Below are positions 15,409 to 27,422 of a stretch of 49,166 nucleotides of DNA, piece after piece. The translations under genes and the position numbers were made by a program. How positions within the stretch are numbered: position 1 is the first letter of the stretch; every line of letters begins with the position of its first letter. Below the pieces are notes generated by a model that searched no databases, had not been told where the DNA came from, and worked only from the letters and a program-made list of their open reading frames with translations. The DNA lies in contig CALUII010000010.1 of the NCBI GenBank assembly GCA_944320665.1, positions 1 to 49,166 on the forward strand, written 5' to 3'. The DNA comes from an uncultured Alistipes sp. Its GTDB lineage: Bacteria; Bacteroidota; Bacteroidia; Bacteroidales; Rikenellaceae.

Positions 15409-15416
15409 TAAATTTG
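15409..15416 (+). promoter_or_regulatory. -7 element of purB
   Basis: TAAATTTG, 30 nt upstream of the purB ATG at 15447. The best -33 candidate (TTTA, 22 nt upstream) is imperfect. Confidence 0.55.
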
Positions 15417-15446
15417 GTGCCGTTAAGTACAAAATTCACACCTTAT

Positions 15447-16793
15447 ATGTTAAACGAACTCACCGCCATATCTCCGGTCGACGGCCGTTACCGGAACAAA
15501 ACGGAAAAACTGGCCGATTATTTTTCGGAGCAGGCCCTGATCCGCTACCGCGTACGCGTCGAAGTGGAGTATTTCATCGCCCTGTGCGAGTTGCCGCTGC
15601 CCCAGCTGGCCGGCATCGACCACACGAAATTCGACGCCCTGCGCGGACTCTACCGCAACTTCTCGGCCGCCGATGCCGCCCGCGTCAAGGAGATCGAATC
15701 GGTCACGAACCACGATGTCAAGGCCGTCGAATACCTCATCAAGGAGAAGATGGATGCCCTCGGACTGGAGGCCTACAAGGAGTTCGTACACTTCGGCCTC
15801 ACGTCGCAGGACATCAACAACACGGCCATTCCCCTCTCGCTCAAGGAGGCCCTCACGGCCGTCTACTACCCCGCCGTCGAGGAGGTGCGCGACAAACTCG
15901 CCTCGCTGGCACACGAGTGGCACGACGTACCGATGCTCGCCCGTACGCACGGACAGCCCGCCTCTCCCACCAATCTGGGCAAGGAGTTCATGGTCTATGT
16001 CGAGCGCCTCGAGAAGCAACTGGGCCTGCTGCACGACCTGGCCGTGCCGGCCAAGTTCGGCGGCGCCACGGGCAACTTCAATGCCCATCACGCAGCCTAT
16101 CCCACGTACGACTGGGCGGCCTTTGCCGACCGCTTCGTGAACGAGGGGCTGGGACTCTGCCGCTCACGCTACACGACCCAGATCGAGCACTACGACAACC
16201 TGGCGGCCATCTTCGACAACCTGCGCCGCATTGACACGATCCTCACGGACCTCTGCCGCGACATGTGGATGTACATCTCCGAGGAGTACTTCAAGCAGCA
16301 GATCAAGGCCGGTGAGGTGGGTTCGAGCGCCATGCCCCACAAGGTCAACCCGATCGACTTCGAGAATGCCGAGGGGAACTTCGGCATCGCCGGCGCCATC
16401 TACGGCCACCTGTCGACGAAGCTCCCCGTGTCGCGCCTGCAGCGCGACCTCACCGACTCGACCGTCCTGCGCAACATCGGCGTGCCGATGGCCCACTCGC
16501 TCATCGGCCTGAAGTCGCTGATGAAGGGTCTGGGTAAGGTGCTGCTCAACCGCGAGGCACTCGACCGCGACCTGGACAACAACTGGGCCGTCGTGGCCGA
16601 AGGCATCCAGACGATCCTGCGCCGCGAGGGCTATCCGAAGCCCTACGAGGCGCTGAAGGCCCTGACGCGCACCAACACGCACATCACGGCCGAATCGATC
16701 GCCGCCTTCATCGAGACGCTCAACGTGTCGGACGGAGTGAAGGCCGAGCTGCGCGCCCTCACGCCCCACACCTATACGGGTATCTTCGGATAG
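15447..16793 (+). CDS. purB: Adenylosuccinate lyase
   Basis: Purine enzyme that cleaves SAICAR and adenylosuccinate to release fumarate. 448 residues; the ATG at 15447 gives MLNELTAISPVDGRYRNKTE, the canonical start of the long PurB form. The signature loop GSSAMPHKVNPIDFENAEGN is intact and contains the catalytic serine; the conserved TSQDINNTA and ARTHGQPA blocks hold the other active-site residues. It is monocistronic on the plus strand and followed by two hairpins. Confidence 0.97.
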   Translation: MLNELTAISPVDGRYRNKTEKLADYFSEQALIRYRVRVEVEYFIALCELPLPQLAGIDHTKFDALRGLYRNFSAADAARVKEIESVTNHDVKAVEYLIKEKMDALGLEAYKEFVHFGLTSQDINNTAIPLSLKEALTAVYYPAVEEVRDKLASLAHEWHDVPMLARTHGQPASPTNLGKEFMVYVERLEKQLGLLHDLAVPAKFGGATGNFNAHHAAYPTYDWAAFADRFVNEGLGLCRSRYTTQIEHYDNLAAIFDNLRRIDTILTDLCRDMWMYISEEYFKQQIKAGEVGSSAMPHKVNPIDFENAEGNFGIAGAIYGHLSTKLPVSRLQRDLTDSTVLRNIGVPMAHSLIGLKSLMKGLGKVLLNREALDRDLDNNWAVVAEGIQTILRREGYPKPYEALKALTRTNTHITAESIAAFIETLNVSDGVKAELRALTPHTYTGIFG

Positions 16794-16863
16794 CCCCCCG
16801 TACGGGCGAACCGGAACATGGGCTGCCTGCGGAGGGAGGCGGCACGAGGTACGGGCAACACCC

Positions 16864-16888
16864 GCAGGCGGACCGTCGATCCGCCTGC
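16864..16888 (+). terminator. purB: First hairpin downstream of purB
   Basis: Perfect 9-bp inverted repeat GCAGGCGGA/TCCGCCTGC with a 7-nt loop, 70 nt after the purB stop. There is no T tract. It may protect the mRNA end or act with the next hairpin. Confidence 0.5.
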
Positions 16889-16934
16889 TCAGTTGATCGC
16901 CCATTCGATAAATCACACAATGCGATGCAAACAT

Positions 16935-16973
16935 GCCGCCGATGGTTCTCCGACCATCGGCGGCTCGCATTTT
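16935..16973 (+). terminator. Second hairpin downstream of purB, abutting a sigma-54 promoter
   Basis: Perfect 11-bp stem (16935-16945 with 16954-16964), then TCGCA and four T (16970-16973). It resembles an intrinsic terminator for purB. The T run overlaps the upstream edge of the first sigma-54-type promoter. Confidence 0.6.
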
Positions 16974-16988
16974 GGCACAAGGCTTGCT
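16972..16988 (+). promoter_or_regulatory. Sigma-54-type promoter of RNA unit 1
   Basis: TTGGCAC-N5-TTGCT with GG at 16974-16975 and GC at 16986-16987, exactly 10 nt apart as RpoN promoters require. The predicted start is about 16998, where strong similarity to unit 2 begins. Confidence 0.72.
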
Positions 16989-16997
16989 CCTCTCGGG

Positions 16998-17123
16998 GCA
17001 ACTGATGTGTCAGAACCACACAGTGAGGTTTCTTCATTTATTAAGTTTGGGTTAGTAGTTTTGCGGAGACACCCGTCTCCGGAGGCGGCAGGCAATCGCG
17101 ACGATTCCCTGCCGTTTTTTTTT
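16998..17123 (+). ncRNA. Candidate structured small RNA, unit 1
   Basis: Predicted transcript of about 125 nt. Elements in order: a 5' hairpin (ACTG-A-TGT pairing with ACACAGT), a U-rich single strand containing TTTCTTCATTT, a hairpin GGAGAC-ACCC-GTCTCC (17065-17080), and a terminator stem (17086-17114 with one central mismatch) followed by nine T (17115-17123). Compared with unit 2, the differences in the stems keep pairing and the loop indels are of 1 or 2 nt, so no protein is conserved. It could act as a trans-acting sRNA or as the first of two tandem leaders for the downstream permease. Boundaries are predicted, not measured. Confidence 0.7.
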
Positions 17124-17141
17124 GCCCGCGTGCCGCATATT

Positions 17142-17158
17142 TTGGCACGGCTCTTGCT
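17142..17158 (+). promoter_or_regulatory. Sigma-54-type promoter of RNA unit 2
   Basis: TTGGCACG-GCTC-TTGCT, a full match to the RpoN consensus, with GG (17144-17145) and GC (17156-17157) 10 nt apart. Predicted start about 17168. Confidence 0.75.
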
Positions 17159-17167
17159 GCGTTTGAG

Positions 17168-17290
17168 GGCAACTGATGTGTCGAACCACACAGTGAGGTT
17201 TCTTCATTTATTTAAAGTTTGGGTTAATAGTTTCAGGAGGTCCCACGCCTCCGAGGCAGCAGGCAATCGCGACGATTCCCTGCTGTTTTT
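17168..17290 (+). ncRNA. Candidate structured small RNA, unit 2
   Basis: Predicted transcript of about 122 nt, paralogous to unit 1. The 5' hairpin is kept with a loop one base shorter. The second hairpin is GGAGGT-CCCAC-GCCTCC, where two base pairs differ from unit 1 yet still pair. The terminator stem (17257-17263 with 17279-17285) carries an A-T pair where unit 1 has G-C. Only five T (17286-17290) follow, so termination may be leakier than in unit 1 and could allow read-through into the permease that starts 98 nt downstream. Confidence 0.7.
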
Positions 17291-17387
17291 CGTTTGGTCC
17301 CGCCCGGACTTCGCTTTTCCCCTGCCCACCACACACTCCGGCACGAAAACTGCGCAACGAAACCCCGTAAAATCAACACCACGGACC

Positions 17388-18884
17388 ATGCCCACACACC
17401 ACCGACACATCACCACCGGGCAACTCGCCTTGATGACCGCCGCCGCCATCATCAGCCTGCGCGGCCTGCCGATGATGGCTCAGGAGGAGCTCACCATGTT
17501 CTTCTACATCCTCTTTGCCACTCTCCTTTTTCTGCTCCCCGCAGCCCTCGTCAGCGCCGAACTCGGCAGCGCCTTCCCCGCTCGGAGCGGCGGCGTATAC
17601 ACCTGGGTCCGTCAGGCCTTCAACCCTCAGATGGGCTTCACGGCCATCTTCCTGCAGTGGATCCAGAACGTCGTCTGGTATCCCACCGTTCTGGCCTTCG
17701 CCGCCGCCTCGCTCGCCTACGCCGTCGGACGCCCCGAATGGGCACACAACGGACTCTACGTCGGACTTACGTCGATCGCACTCTACGGAGTGGCTACGTG
17801 GCTCACGCTGCGCGGCACGTCGCTCCTCTCGACAATCACCAGCCGCGGTTTCCTCCTGGGCACCCTGCTGCCCGGCAGCGCCATCATCCTGATCGCCCTC
17901 GTGTGGCTCGTCGGCGGCAATCCGATCGAATTCGACGACCTTCCCGGGAACCTCTCGCAACTCGTCCACGTCGACAACGTGCAGCACGCCCACCCGCGCC
18001 TCTTCCCGCACATCACGGGAATGAGCGACATCGCCTTCCTGGCAGGCATTCTGCTGCTCTTCGCCGGCGTCGAGGTGCACGCCGTCCACGCCCCCGAGCT
18101 GAAGAACCCCCAGCGGCAGTTCCCGCGGGCCATGTTCCTCGCCGCGCTCATCTCCTTCACGCTCTTCACGCTGGGTGCCCTGGCCGTCGCCGTGATCACC
18201 CCTTACGACCGCATCGACCTGCAGTCGGGCCTCTTCACCACGTTCCGCATCGCCTTCGACCACTACGGCATCGAATGGCTCACCAACGTCATGGGGCTGC
18301 TCACGGCCTTCGGCACACTGGCCGGCATCCTGTCGTGGATCTCGGGTCCAAGCCGCGGCCTGCTCTGGACTGCCCAGGAGGGGTTGCTGCCGCGCTTCCT
18401 CCAGCGAACAAACCGCCGGGGCGTGCAGCGAAACATCCTGCTCGTGCAATTCGGCCTCGTCGCGCTGCTGTCGTCGTGCTACCTCTTCATGCAGAACGTC
18501 AACGTCGCCTTCTTCCTGCTGAGCGCCCTCACCATCGGACTCTACCTGATCATGTACCTGATGATGTACGCCGCCGCCATCCGCCTGCGCTACACACAAC
18601 CCGACCTGCCGCGCAGCTACCGCGTGCCGGGCGGACGCATCGGCCTGTGGATCATTGCCGGCGGCGGCTTTCTGGCCGTGCTCTTCTCCCTGGTAGTCAC
18701 CTTCTTCCCGCCGTCGCAACTTCCCGTGGGCAGCCCCACGACCTACACGCTCCTGGTCGCAGCCGGCACGCTGCTCTTCGTGAGCATCCCGCTGGTAATC
18801 AGCCGCGTCATGATGCGGCGGATGCACGACCGCATCCCCACCCGTCCGCTACCCGCCGATACGGAGCAGCCGGCCGAAGAGTAA
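17388..18884 (+). CDS. APC-superfamily amino-acid permease/antiporter, GadC-like
   Basis: Inner-membrane transporter of 498 residues with about 12 helices. The ATG at 17388 gives MPTHHRHITTGQLALMTAAA. Family features are the early glycine/proline-rich helix (SLRGLPMMAQEEL), SAELGSAFPARSGGVYTWV, and a central FAGVEVHAVHAPELKNPQRQ block typical of the glutamate:GABA-antiporter branch. The substrate is probably an acidic amino acid or its decarboxylation product, but no decarboxylase is adjacent. I see no housekeeping promoter in the 97 nt upstream; the nearest are the two sigma-54-type promoters. Confidence 0.85.
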   Translation: MPTHHRHITTGQLALMTAAAIISLRGLPMMAQEELTMFFYILFATLLFLLPAALVSAELGSAFPARSGGVYTWVRQAFNPQMGFTAIFLQWIQNVVWYPTVLAFAAASLAYAVGRPEWAHNGLYVGLTSIALYGVATWLTLRGTSLLSTITSRGFLLGTLLPGSAIILIALVWLVGGNPIEFDDLPGNLSQLVHVDNVQHAHPRLFPHITGMSDIAFLAGILLLFAGVEVHAVHAPELKNPQRQFPRAMFLAALISFTLFTLGALAVAVITPYDRIDLQSGLFTTFRIAFDHYGIEWLTNVMGLLTAFGTLAGILSWISGPSRGLLWTAQEGLLPRFLQRTNRRGVQRNILLVQFGLVALLSSCYLFMQNVNVAFFLLSALTIGLYLIMYLMMYAAAIRLRYTQPDLPRSYRVPGGRIGLWIIAGGGFLAVLFSLVVTFFPPSQLPVGSPTTYTLLVAAGTLLFVSIPLVISRVMMRRMHDRIPTRPLPADTEQPAEE

Positions 18885-25256: not shown

Positions 25257-27422
25257 TCACTCTTTCGGGTCAACGCCTCCCTCGGTGCCATCTCCACCGC
25301 CTTCACCCTCGCCTTCGCCAGGATTGGGCAATGATCCGGCCGGAGCCTCCAGCAAGATAGCCTCTTTCTTCACATCGTTGTAGCGGCCGTCGTTACTACG
25401 GCAAACAAGCAGAACATAATATTGGGTTGCTCCGCCGATAAATGCACGCATTTCACCAGTCGTCCAAGGCGAGGTTCCCGACTTATACCAATCCGTTGCA
25501 ACATTCTCCTGCTTCTTGGCAGCGAGGATCAAGGCCGAGGCATTCGACGAGTTGTAGATAGCGGCGTCAACCACATAAACCCACATCTCCTTGCAGTCGC
25601 TGTTCGGCGTAATATTCAGGTTGAAATCCATAAAAGTAGAAACCTGAGCACCGGAACCCGTCTGGCCGATCGTATAATTACCCAACTCCCAGGTAGCATT
25701 TGCCGTACCGGTCAAATCATAGGCCGAGGTCTTATACTCCGTCGTCGACAACTGCGTGAACTTGCCATCCTTATCCATCATGATAACAAAATAGCAGTAC
25801 TCCGTGCTTGCCGACAGATCAGCCTCCTGCGGCAGACGCTGACGCGTCAACTGATCGGGCGTCGTCACTGCCGTCGGCGAGTAACCGCTCAACATACGCG
25901 AGAGAATATTCTCGGGCTTGCCCATGTAATCACGACGGTAGTCGGATTTCGAGATGTTGATGTAACGGATCTCAGCGACGTTGGTCAGATCACTCGTAAT
26001 CTGGAACTGAGCCTTCTCCTCGGGATACGAAGTTTTCAACTGCGTCAATTCGATGGTTACGGGCGAATCCAACTCATAATCGGGGGTCGTAGCCGACACC
26101 TTGACGGGAGCACCGTAATGGCCTTCGGCATCCATGGCCAGTGTACAGAAGACGTAAGCCGTATTGGCACTCAATTCGGTAAATTCAATCGTCTGCGTGC
26201 CGTTGGTTTCGATACCGCTGACCAGCATGGCTGCAGCCAGCTTGGCATCCGTAGCATACTGCGAATCAACGGTTGCCTGAGTGAATCGTGCATAGCGATA
26301 CGAAGCAGCCGTCTCATTCGGCGTGAAGGTCACCTTGGCGCTCTGCACCGTCAGAGCATCTACGGTCATCGAGACCGAAGCACTGCCCGTAAGGTCAAGC
26401 GGCAGGGTCTTGAACGAGGTCGTCATCAGGTCGTCGGTCGTCAGCGCAGCCAACTCGTCCGTGTCGTTCTCCTCGTCGGCATCCTGAGCCACCCACCAAA
26501 TCACGTACTCCGTATCGGGAGCCAGAACCAGACCGGCCAACAGATCGGTAGCCGAAAGTTTGTTCTCGATCGGATCCGTACGCTTGGTCTCCGAACCACT
26601 CTGAATAGCAGAAATGATATCGGCAGCATCGGTCGGATTCGAAGCCTCATAAACACCTGCATAATATACGGCGCTCATGCTCTTGTCCATGGTGATCGTC
26701 ACCTTGGCGTCGAGATCCGAAATCTCGGAAACCGTAACCTTCACGGCCAGCGCCTTCGTCGTGAACTCCGACGTAGCGTGTTCGCCCACGAGGTCGCCGT
26801 AAACGCCATAAGCCTCGATCGTATAGGTCGTAGCGTCGCTCAGGTTATCGACCGTAACAGTCGTAGCACCCTCTTCGGCCACGGCCACCTCCGAAAATTC
26901 GGCGGGAGCCTCCGTACCCTTCGCATATACAGCATAACGATACGTCGTTGCATCACCCGTATGCGACAGTTTGAAGGAAACCTGAGTGGCCGAAGCCGTC
27001 ACATCAGCGATGGTCAGTACCGGAGCAACGGCCGGGACATCCAACGTCTTAACATACTCACGTACCGTACCGCTGCGCTGATCGCCGTAGTAGGCACGGG
27101 CCACGATGGCATACTCCGTACTGGGGGTCAGGCCATCGACCGTAATGGTTTCGGAGGGCTCACCGCTCTCCACGCGGGTCAGGTCATAGGTACCCGACTC
27201 ATAATCGGTACGCAACATGCAGCCGTACTCATACGCATCGGCATTGGCAGGCGTCAATTTGAAGGAAATGCTCTCCATGTTCGCAGCCACTTCCGAAATC
27301 GTAATCGTAGGCGGTTCCTGAGGTTGCGTATTCACGGGATCTTCCTTGTCATCGCAAGCTGCGAACATTCCGGCGCAGCACACCAGTGTCAGCAACCAGA
27401 AAAACTTGCTTAATTTCTTCAT
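25257..27422 (-). CDS. Surface lipoprotein with repeated fibronectin-III-like domains
   Basis: 721 residues. Lipobox LVCCAGMFAACDDKED: Cys about 23 followed by D-D-K-E-D, a strong surface-export signal. The rest is a chain of about six beta-sandwich modules of roughly 100 residues with Fn3-like signatures (VDGLTPSTEYAIVARAYYGD, LSDATTYTIEAYGVYGD, LAPDTEYVIWWVAQD, LSANTAYVFCTLAMD). The C-terminus is a Gly/Glu low-complexity tail. There is no enzymatic motif; a binding or scaffold role is inferred. It lies 30 nt before the S41 gene. Confidence 0.8.
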   Translation of the reverse strand: MKKLSKFFWLLTLVCCAGMFAACDDKEDPVNTQPQEPPTITISEVAANMESISFKLTPANADAYEYGCMLRTDYESGTYDLTRVESGEPSETITVDGLTPSTEYAIVARAYYGDQRSGTVREYVKTLDVPAVAPVLTIADVTASATQVSFKLSHTGDATTYRYAVYAKGTEAPAEFSEVAVAEEGATTVTVDNLSDATTYTIEAYGVYGDLVGEHATSEFTTKALAVKVTVSEISDLDAKVTITMDKSMSAVYYAGVYEASNPTDAADIISAIQSGSETKRTDPIENKLSATDLLAGLVLAPDTEYVIWWVAQDADEENDTDELAALTTDDLMTTSFKTLPLDLTGSASVSMTVDALTVQSAKVTFTPNETAASYRYARFTQATVDSQYATDAKLAAAMLVSGIETNGTQTIEFTELSANTAYVFCTLAMDAEGHYGAPVKVSATTPDYELDSPVTIELTQLKTSYPEEKAQFQITSDLTNVAEIRYINISKSDYRRDYMGKPENILSRMLSGYSPTAVTTPDQLTRQRLPQEADLSASTEYCYFVIMMDKDGKFTQLSTTEYKTSAYDLTGTANATWELGNYTIGQTGSGAQVSTFMDFNLNITPNSDCKEMWVYVVDAAIYNSSNASALILAAKKQENVATDWYKSGTSPWTTGEMRAFIGGATQYYVLLVCRSNDGRYNDVKKEAILLEAPAGSLPNPGEGEGEGGGDGTEGGVDPKE

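Follow-up and report, generated by a model that had tools for sequence, protein, structure and literature searches.

Sigma-54 promoters are known to drive short, terminated sRNAs, sometimes present in several copies, such as the Qrr sRNAs of Vibrio and GlmY of enterobacteria. In Flavobacterium psychrophilum, the passages covered of one study report that sigma-54 drives chaperone and envelope-stress genes, with -24/-12 promoters listed for GroESL, DnaK, Lon, HtpG, ClpB, Skp, lipoproteins and a putative RNA, Rfp36 (PMC9723704). The FopS sRNAs of B. thetaiotaomicron are described, in the parts covered of their source, as using a 5' seed to pair with PUL mRNAs, susC among them, at their start region and to block translation, a block that is counteracted by RbpB, an RRM-1 protein (PMC11697453).

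Neither a paper devoted to the sRNAs of Alistipes nor a report of the RNA described below was found in the literature searched, with most subscription papers lying outside its coverage. Alistipes is a common gut genus. Its reads have been counted in small-RNA sequencing of stool, the RNAs being unnamed in the passages of that source that were covered (PMC6749105). The window analyzed here, which is the whole stretch of 49,166 bases from an uncultured Alistipes sp., carries two head-to-tail units, with a period of 170, of a sigma-54-type RNA that we name RNA-A. The units and their neighbors are as follows.

15414 to 16793, + strand: adenylosuccinate lyase gene (purB), upstream neighbor (protein domain scan)
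16973 to 16988, + strand: unit 1 -24/-12 promoter, TGGCACAAGGCTTGCT (sequence, conservation in relatives)
16998 to 17123, + strand: unit 1 predicted RNA (-12 element used to place the 5' end, T tract to place the 3' end)
17006 to 17022, + strand: unit 1 5' hairpin P1 (UGUGU/ACACA), proposed from relatives
17026 to 17058, + strand: unit 1 core AGGTTTCTTCATTTATTAAGTTTGGGTTAGTAG, nearly invariant, proposed target-pairing region (alignment of copies)
17064 to 17081, + strand: unit 1 GGAG hairpin P2 (fold, copy-by-copy stem check)
17082 to 17123, + strand: unit 1 terminator hairpin and T tract (fold, RNAalifold)
17143 to 17158, + strand: unit 2 -24/-12 promoter, TGGCACGGCTCTTGCT (sequence, conservation in relatives)
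17168 to 17290, + strand: unit 2 predicted RNA (fold, model match)
17177 to 17192, + strand: unit 2 5' hairpin P1 (UGUGU/ACACA), proposed from relatives
17196 to 17230, + strand: unit 2 core (alignment of copies)
17236 to 17252, + strand: unit 2 GGAG hairpin P2 (GGAGGU/GCCUCC) (fold)
17254 to 17290, + strand: unit 2 terminator hairpin and T tract (fold, RNAalifold)
17388 to 18884, + strand: amino acid permease gene (AA_permease_2), downstream neighbor (Pfam; context only)

The sequence-only reading of this region had described two tandem units with a period of about 170, each headed by TGGCAC-N5-TTGC with GG and GC 10 nt apart. Both units are present at an exact spacing of 170 and both carry the motif with this geometry; the stem changes listed between them, A-U to G-C and C-G to U-G in the GGAG hairpin and G-C to A-U in the terminator, were all found as well. 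In the core of unit 2, GGGTTAATAG replaces the GGGTTAGTAG of unit 1 and one extra A precedes AAGTTT. The same reading had held that the copies share no reading frame, and this extends to the relatives: they differ by 0-3 nt in the T-run of the core, because of which RNA-A is considered non-coding and a coding origin was ruled out for want of a common frame. No tRNA or tmRNA was found in the 49,166-base window.

An open frame (ORF 16818-18884) runs across both units, and the permease most likely starts at ATG 17388, on the same strand and ~97 bp from the end of unit 2. While this position could suggest that RNA-A is a cis-acting leader or attenuator of the downstream permease, both units end in terminators and the permease-region ORF cluster was found in only one of the 38 other loci compared, that of the closest relative (L032), which makes such a role highly improbable. 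Over all 39 loci, the neighbors of RNA-A fall into several sets and differ between many lineages; the purB cluster is near RNA-A in nine of them (the window and eight of the 38 others). Some context is shared, yet no neighbor is common to most RNA-A loci.

Folding gave -44.5 kcal/mol for unit 1 (z of -4.1 versus shuffles) and -39.5 kcal/mol for unit 2 (z of -2.7). RNA-A is laid out as a 5' hairpin, a nearly invariant core of ~34 nt, the GGAG hairpin and a terminator. At least 143 distinct copies were collected, a number that is reached after removing 6 contig-edge copies and exact duplicates and that includes the core-like, promoterless L067-L070 and the viral L251; the copies share descent and counts over them are not independent. 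Among these, 126 combine a T tract with a promoter-derived start (within 250 nt); 120 of the 126 are under 190 nt, and 56 of the 120 are non-redundant. The alignment (A1) comprises 37 of the 56, as the remaining 19 have long leaders or no GGAG hairpin. Within this alignment the core AGGTTTCTTCATTTATTTAAGTTTGGGTTAG hardly varies save in the length of its T-run, and RNAalifold predicts 15 pairs in the terminator, with double compensatory changes, one or more per pair, in 13 of them. Covariation extends to the inner stem beneath the loop, and the loop is GNRA-type in most relatives. The terminator hairpin and T tract that had been read in each unit were folded by both ViennaRNA and RNAalifold, with pairing kept in homologues. 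A simple terminator scan of the window listed neither RNA-A terminator, seemingly because it wants an unbroken stem and an internal mismatch is present here.

P1 is absent from the minimum-energy folds of both window units, and RNAalifold left the two upstream hairpins unplaced in the alignment of length-variable sequences. When each copy was inspected on its own, a 5' stem of at least 5 pairs was found in 44 of 47 non-redundant units, with 37 distinct stems, compared to 18.9 in shuffles that preserved base composition only. A stem after the core was found in 46 of 48 units, which is weak evidence because shuffles of the same kind already give 37.4. L134 is without the 5' hairpin and L137 and L248 are without the GGAG hairpin; core and terminator are kept in all three. 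A covariance model (R1) matched unit 1 at 16997-17121 with 104.6 bits and unit 2 at 17168-17292 with 94.6 bits, the copies of both units being themselves part of the model.

The exact motif TGGCAC-N5-TTGC occurs at only 2 sites in the 49,166 bases, both of which are RNA-A promoters. With one mismatch allowed, 6 sites (the two of RNA-A included) were found versus 3.3 expected; the motif alone is therefore weak and it is its conservation that carries weight. In 120 of the 143 copies listed, the -24/-12 score was at least 9/12, compared to 3.4 copies expected from shuffles that preserved base composition only. Scoring covered the 110 nt upstream of the core TTCATTT, with TGGCACGN4TTGCW as the pattern and its GG and second G kept fixed; some of the 120 matches are distant from TTCATTT, by as much as 109 nt. 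A few copies (e.g., L207 and L229) carry housekeeping, sigma-ABfr-like boxes (TTTG-N19-TAnnTTTG), which suggests a switch of promoter class in some lineages. Upstream of the -24 element, AAATTGTGC/GCACAATTT was found in 10 of 114 non-redundant upstream regions, with 0.1 expected from shuffles; this is a possible activator site.

The host genome encodes an RpoN for which a domain scan found all three of the activator, core-binding and DNA-binding domains. It also gave six Sigma54_activat matches, three of them strong and thus candidates for enhancer-binding proteins (EBPs). Two of these three, scanned whole, carry Sigma54_activat and a Fis-type HTH, one of them together with a receiver domain, while the third is recognized by its Sigma54_activat domain match alone. 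No Sigma54_activat match was found on the contig that carries the window. The sequence-only reading had proposed checking the genome for rpoN and an EBP; rpoN is there, with all three domains, as are the EBP candidates. Its central claim of an RpoN-type promoter on a structured, terminated RNA is supported by the promoter scores (120/143), by the covarying terminator (13 of 15 pairs) and by rpoN with the activator candidates. The marks of the sigma-54-dependent kind of sRNA, namely a GG-N10-GC promoter and encoded RpoN and EBP candidates, were both found, and by promoter and genome content RNA-A is a putative sigma-54-dependent sRNA. We consider it very likely, judging from sequence, that RNA-A is an RNA gene with a sigma-54-type promoter, the transcription of which is predicted.

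A BLAST search with unit 1 across 61 genomes found RNA-A in 36 of 37 genomes of the same genus (71-99% complete), with 1-2 matches per genome and usually one copy, and in none of 24 genomes of other families. The sole genus miss, G011, is 78% complete and carries a loose RNA-A 3' half (L262). A core scan of GTDB contigs gave at least 119 stretches; the titles among the 80 matches listed were Alistipes, Tidjanibacter, Rikenellaceae and one "Bacteroidales bacterium". Tandem copies were also found in L066 (170 apart), L135 (359) and L141 (566). The search for relatives of both units and the covariance model, which had been suggested as checks, thus show a conserved RNA gene of the Rikenellaceae. 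What had been taken for a local sRNA pair is instead a family-wide RNA, with mostly one copy per genome.

Copies that resemble the core and have no good -24/-12 element were seen in L067 (G029:C19), L068 (G017:C12), L069 (G025:C143) and L070 (G022:C6). That of L069 is found directly after a tRNA-Gly gene and that of L067 is followed by a terminator-like hairpin. On a viral IMG/VR contig (48 kb), L251:5589-5611 (- strand) has the core with a terminator-like 3' part.

Some copies of the RNA-A gene in relatives have repeats downstream. An inverted copy of the GGAG-hairpin arm is found just past the terminator in 43 of 141 units, with 0 expected from shuffled arms (shuffles that preserved base composition only), and the inverted arm and the hairpin arm covary between species. 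In 19 of 126, the sRNA 3' half recurs within 4 kb downstream. In L156 (L156:2512-5016), the repeated block measures 124 nt, has its start within the core at TTTGGGTTAG and is 100% identical in the two copies. A palindrome of ~200 nt with GTTAGTAG ends comes next, and the repeats flank a gene for a small exported protein. The 3' half, from GTTTGGGTTAGTAG onward, was found in a genome of another family (L320, G171:C1:109179-109307) and loose in G011 (L262, G011:C4), in both cases resembling the L054/L060 group, which suggests that the RNA-A 3' half may move. With repeats in about one third of copies, RNA-A would represent an sRNA gene with a 3' half that is moved by mobile elements. An integron cassette array was considered as the source of the repeats and discarded, as no integron integrase (TIGR02249) was over cut-off in the 23 genus genomes searched.

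These repeats could indicate that the core is kept as a site that mobile elements use at the DNA or RNA level, with the sRNA gene docking palindromic cassettes and regulation being minor. tRNA genes are docking sites of integrating elements. The core copies after tRNA-Gly (L069) and in the viral contig (L251), the block that begins inside the core in L156, the inverted arms, the second 3' halves and the 3' halves without a full core in L320 and G011 would all be consistent with such a site. However, it leaves the -24/-12 element and the RNA-level covariation unexplained, 98 of 141 units have no inverted copy, including both window units, where no inverted arm was found, and the genus genomes searched for integron integrase had none over cut-off. 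We therefore regard this as an unlikely explanation.

A second RNA of the genus, RNA-B, is found in 33 of 37 genus genomes, with one marginal match among the 24 others; examples are L072:1477-1618 (+) and, in the host genome, L131 (G000:C41:3604-3672). It has a conserved GAAGTTTTAAGGTTCATTTTAGGTTAGTAGTTTTAGGTTGG and a variable 3' domain, and no Rfam match was found in the five loci scanned. RNA-B is similar to RNA-A in having GGTTAGTAGTTTTAGG, the TTCATTT element, an unpaired 5' part and a structured 3' end. It differs from RNA-A in its 3' structure and in its promoter, which is of sigma-ABfr type in 30 of 30 copies examined.

The reading of RNA-A that we prefer is that each unit would be an independent gene for a trans-acting sRNA of ~125 nt, transcribed by RpoN RNA polymerase with an enhancer-binding protein, in which the nearly invariant core AGGUUUCUUCAUUUAUUUAAGUUUGGGUUAGUAG would be presented between the 5' hairpin and the 3' hairpin plus terminator. 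By analogy with FopS, UUUCUUCAU of the core would base-pair with AUGAAGAAA, which encodes the Met-Lys-Lys start in many mRNAs for exported proteins and lipoproteins, and this pairing would block translation initiation; sigma-54 signals would thereby lower the exported-protein load. Repression of Met-Lys-Lys exported proteins would depend on the UUCUUCAU part of the core.

The complement of the core contains AAATAAATGAAGAAAC / AAATAAATGAAGAAA, which are start-region-like. Among 832 mechanical genes near sRNA loci, for which the start was taken as the first ATG of a mechanical ORF and not from annotation, ATGAAGAAA of the core complement is the 4th of 548 first 9-mers. All ten genes that start with it were signal-peptide-like by a simple hydrophobicity rule, compared to 228 of 832 overall. 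In the window, two lipoprotein-like genes have ATGAAGAAA starts, at 27422 and 31952 on the minus strand. Pairing in start-codon register showed a weak excess (47 versus 29 at 9 or more and 9 versus 3.5 at 12 or more), part of which is what any Lys-Lys start would give. RNAduplex energies over the 832 start regions did not stand out from those of eight dinucleotide-shuffled cores. In the 37 genus genomes, the 12-mer pattern AAACTACTAACW..ATG gave 10 rows versus 14 in a reversed control. A target search with AAACTACTAACC..ATG in 37 genomes was abandoned; it returned mostly RNA-A and RNA-B genes and reversed core-like copies, with the exception of one match in G047 (other family), one in G011 that is the loose 3' half L262, and three lying at 1.0-2.3 kb from an RNA-A copy (G002, G021 and G022).

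The near invariance over ~34 nt exceeds what a pairing seed needs, so another constraint on the core is possible. One such constraint would be a protein, with RNA-A acting as a sponge or scaffold and not on mRNAs. Along with the length of the invariant stretch, the negative or weak mRNA pairing tests are consistent with this, as is RNA-B, which also has GGTTAGTAGTTTTAGG and aligns with the core at 11/1000 versus dinucleotide shuffles (uncorrected, one of 28 pairs compared, with ends chosen by eye). However, the internal spacing of the core shifts by 0-3 nt, the complement AAATAAATGAAGAAA resembles a start region, and a candidate protein was not identified; protein binding in place of mRNA pairing therefore seems improbable to us.

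Another possibility concerns the targets. A GH5-type gene (L053:6180-7314, identified by Pfam on the L053 protein) adjoins RNA-A in L053 and L065 and is a candidate target by RNAduplex: its start carries AAACUACUAACACUAUACCAUUAUG and forms a duplex of -22.1 kcal/mol with the core in both loci, and the gene for a similar-looking protein in L220 reaches -20.7 kcal/mol. Taken with the FopS precedent, these duplexes could indicate that RNA-A is a FopS-like sRNA for polysaccharide use, which would repress susC or glycoside hydrolase mRNAs instead of responding to general envelope stress. Against this, the gene covers two or three species only and the 12-mer before ATG was below its control in the 37 genus genomes; we find a role restricted to polysaccharide use quite unlikely.

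Small exported-protein genes near some copies share a 5' UTR with AACTTAAATA, which is complementary to 10 nt of the core. This UTR was set aside as a target; it sits in a palindrome in several copies. In seven loci (L050, L061, L064, L156, L172, L186 and L191), small exported proteins that look unrelated have a common 5' UTR with a GTTTAACTTAAATA-like stretch, and in at least four of the seven this stretch is one arm of a palindrome.

Weighing these results, we lean slightly towards our explanation taken whole, namely a sigma-54-controlled, FopS-like sRNA aimed at exported-protein start codons, in which transcription, targets, repression and signal are all predictions. The FopS-like mechanism as such, drawn by analogy, is put forward tentatively. 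A more far-reaching reading would follow the logic of sigma-E and RybB in E. coli: sigma-54, responding to envelope or protein-folding stress, would drive one conserved sRNA with a core that fits the Met-Lys-Lys start of exported proteins as a class, and this sRNA would silence them without an RRM protein; its gene would also dock palindromic cassettes, by which its 3' half is exchanged or duplicated. We consider this combination rather doubtful. Our best guess for the signal is envelope or protein-folding stress, because the -24/-12 promoters of F. psychrophilum, in the passages covered, include those of protein quality control and envelope-stress genes (PMC9723704). RNA-A may open a little-studied control circuit of common gut microbes, and it could provide a direct handle on the role of RpoN in gut Bacteroidota.

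With respect to known families, the window matched no Rfam 15 family at gathering score. With matches up to E of 10 admitted, the region 16800-17500 gave just two, both far under their cut-offs, and none to RF04319 (FopS). Bacteroidales-1 RNA (RF01693) had no match in the host genome at E up to 1 under the stricter filters of the 61-genome search. The earlier statement that RNA-A belongs to no described family thus stands for Rfam 15 and is weakened where distant kinship is concerned, since weak matches point to possible FopS kin. In a sample of 393 genomes of the order, searched with stricter filters and E-values per genome, R1 matched 10 genomes at E of 0.001 or below. Five of these belong to the same family (host included) and have E-values of 1.5e-12 or lower; the other five lie outside the family, with values between 1e-6 and 9e-4. 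The latter include L323 (7e-4) and L324 (9e-4), which could be due to chance, as the E-values are per genome and 393 genomes were searched. L322 has a perfect upstream -24/-12 element, TGGCACGGTAATTGCA, with a score of 12, and L323, from another family, matched RF04319 (BTncRNA_FopS) with 44.1 bits against a gathering score of 56.

When 5' parts were aligned and compared with dinucleotide shuffles (uncorrected per-pair figures over 28 pairs compared, with ends chosen by eye), the core gave 1/1000 with L324 and 1/1000 with L321, and FopS gave 3/1000 with L324 and 0/1000 with L323. The core compared directly with FopS was not significant (133/1000), nor was the core with L322 (275/1000), L323 (187/1000) or L326 (259/1000). 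A distant relationship between RNA-A and FopS is plausible but unproven.

Compared to Qrr and GlmY, RNA-A belongs to another phylum, has no Rfam match and has no Sigma54_activat match on its own contig; it shares with them a sigma-54 promoter, a short terminated sRNA and, sometimes, multiple copies. Rfp36 of F. psychrophilum is likewise a putative regulatory RNA of the Bacteroidota with a -24/-12 promoter, a likeness drawn from one table row and not from sequence (PMC9723704, Table 2A, in the part of the source covered). FopS and RNA-A are both short, belong to bacteria of one taxonomic order, and both have a conserved unpaired 5' region with UUCAU followed by a terminator hairpin; the unpaired 5' seed and intrinsic terminator of FopS are thus present in RNA-A, with extra hairpins in most copies. 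FopS has also been reported in phage, in the passages covered (PMC11697453), and the RNA-A core was found in one viral contig. By comparison, FopS has sigma-ABfr promoters, 12-15 copies per genome and RbpB (RRM-1) as a protein partner, whereas RNA-A has a sigma-54-type promoter in 120 of the 143 copies listed, 1-2 copies per genome, no match to RF04319 and no RRM protein found in its genus (PF00076 in 0 of 37 genus genomes, which are 71-99% complete, versus 16 of 24 other-family genomes). Because of the absent Rfam match, the other promoter class, the copy number and the lack of an RRM protein, RNA-A is not a member of FopS by the tests made, although its mode of action may be similar. If FopS-like, it would act without an RbpB-type protein, given the RRM count of the genus, and could therefore serve as a handle on FopS-type regulation in genomes where no RRM protein is found.
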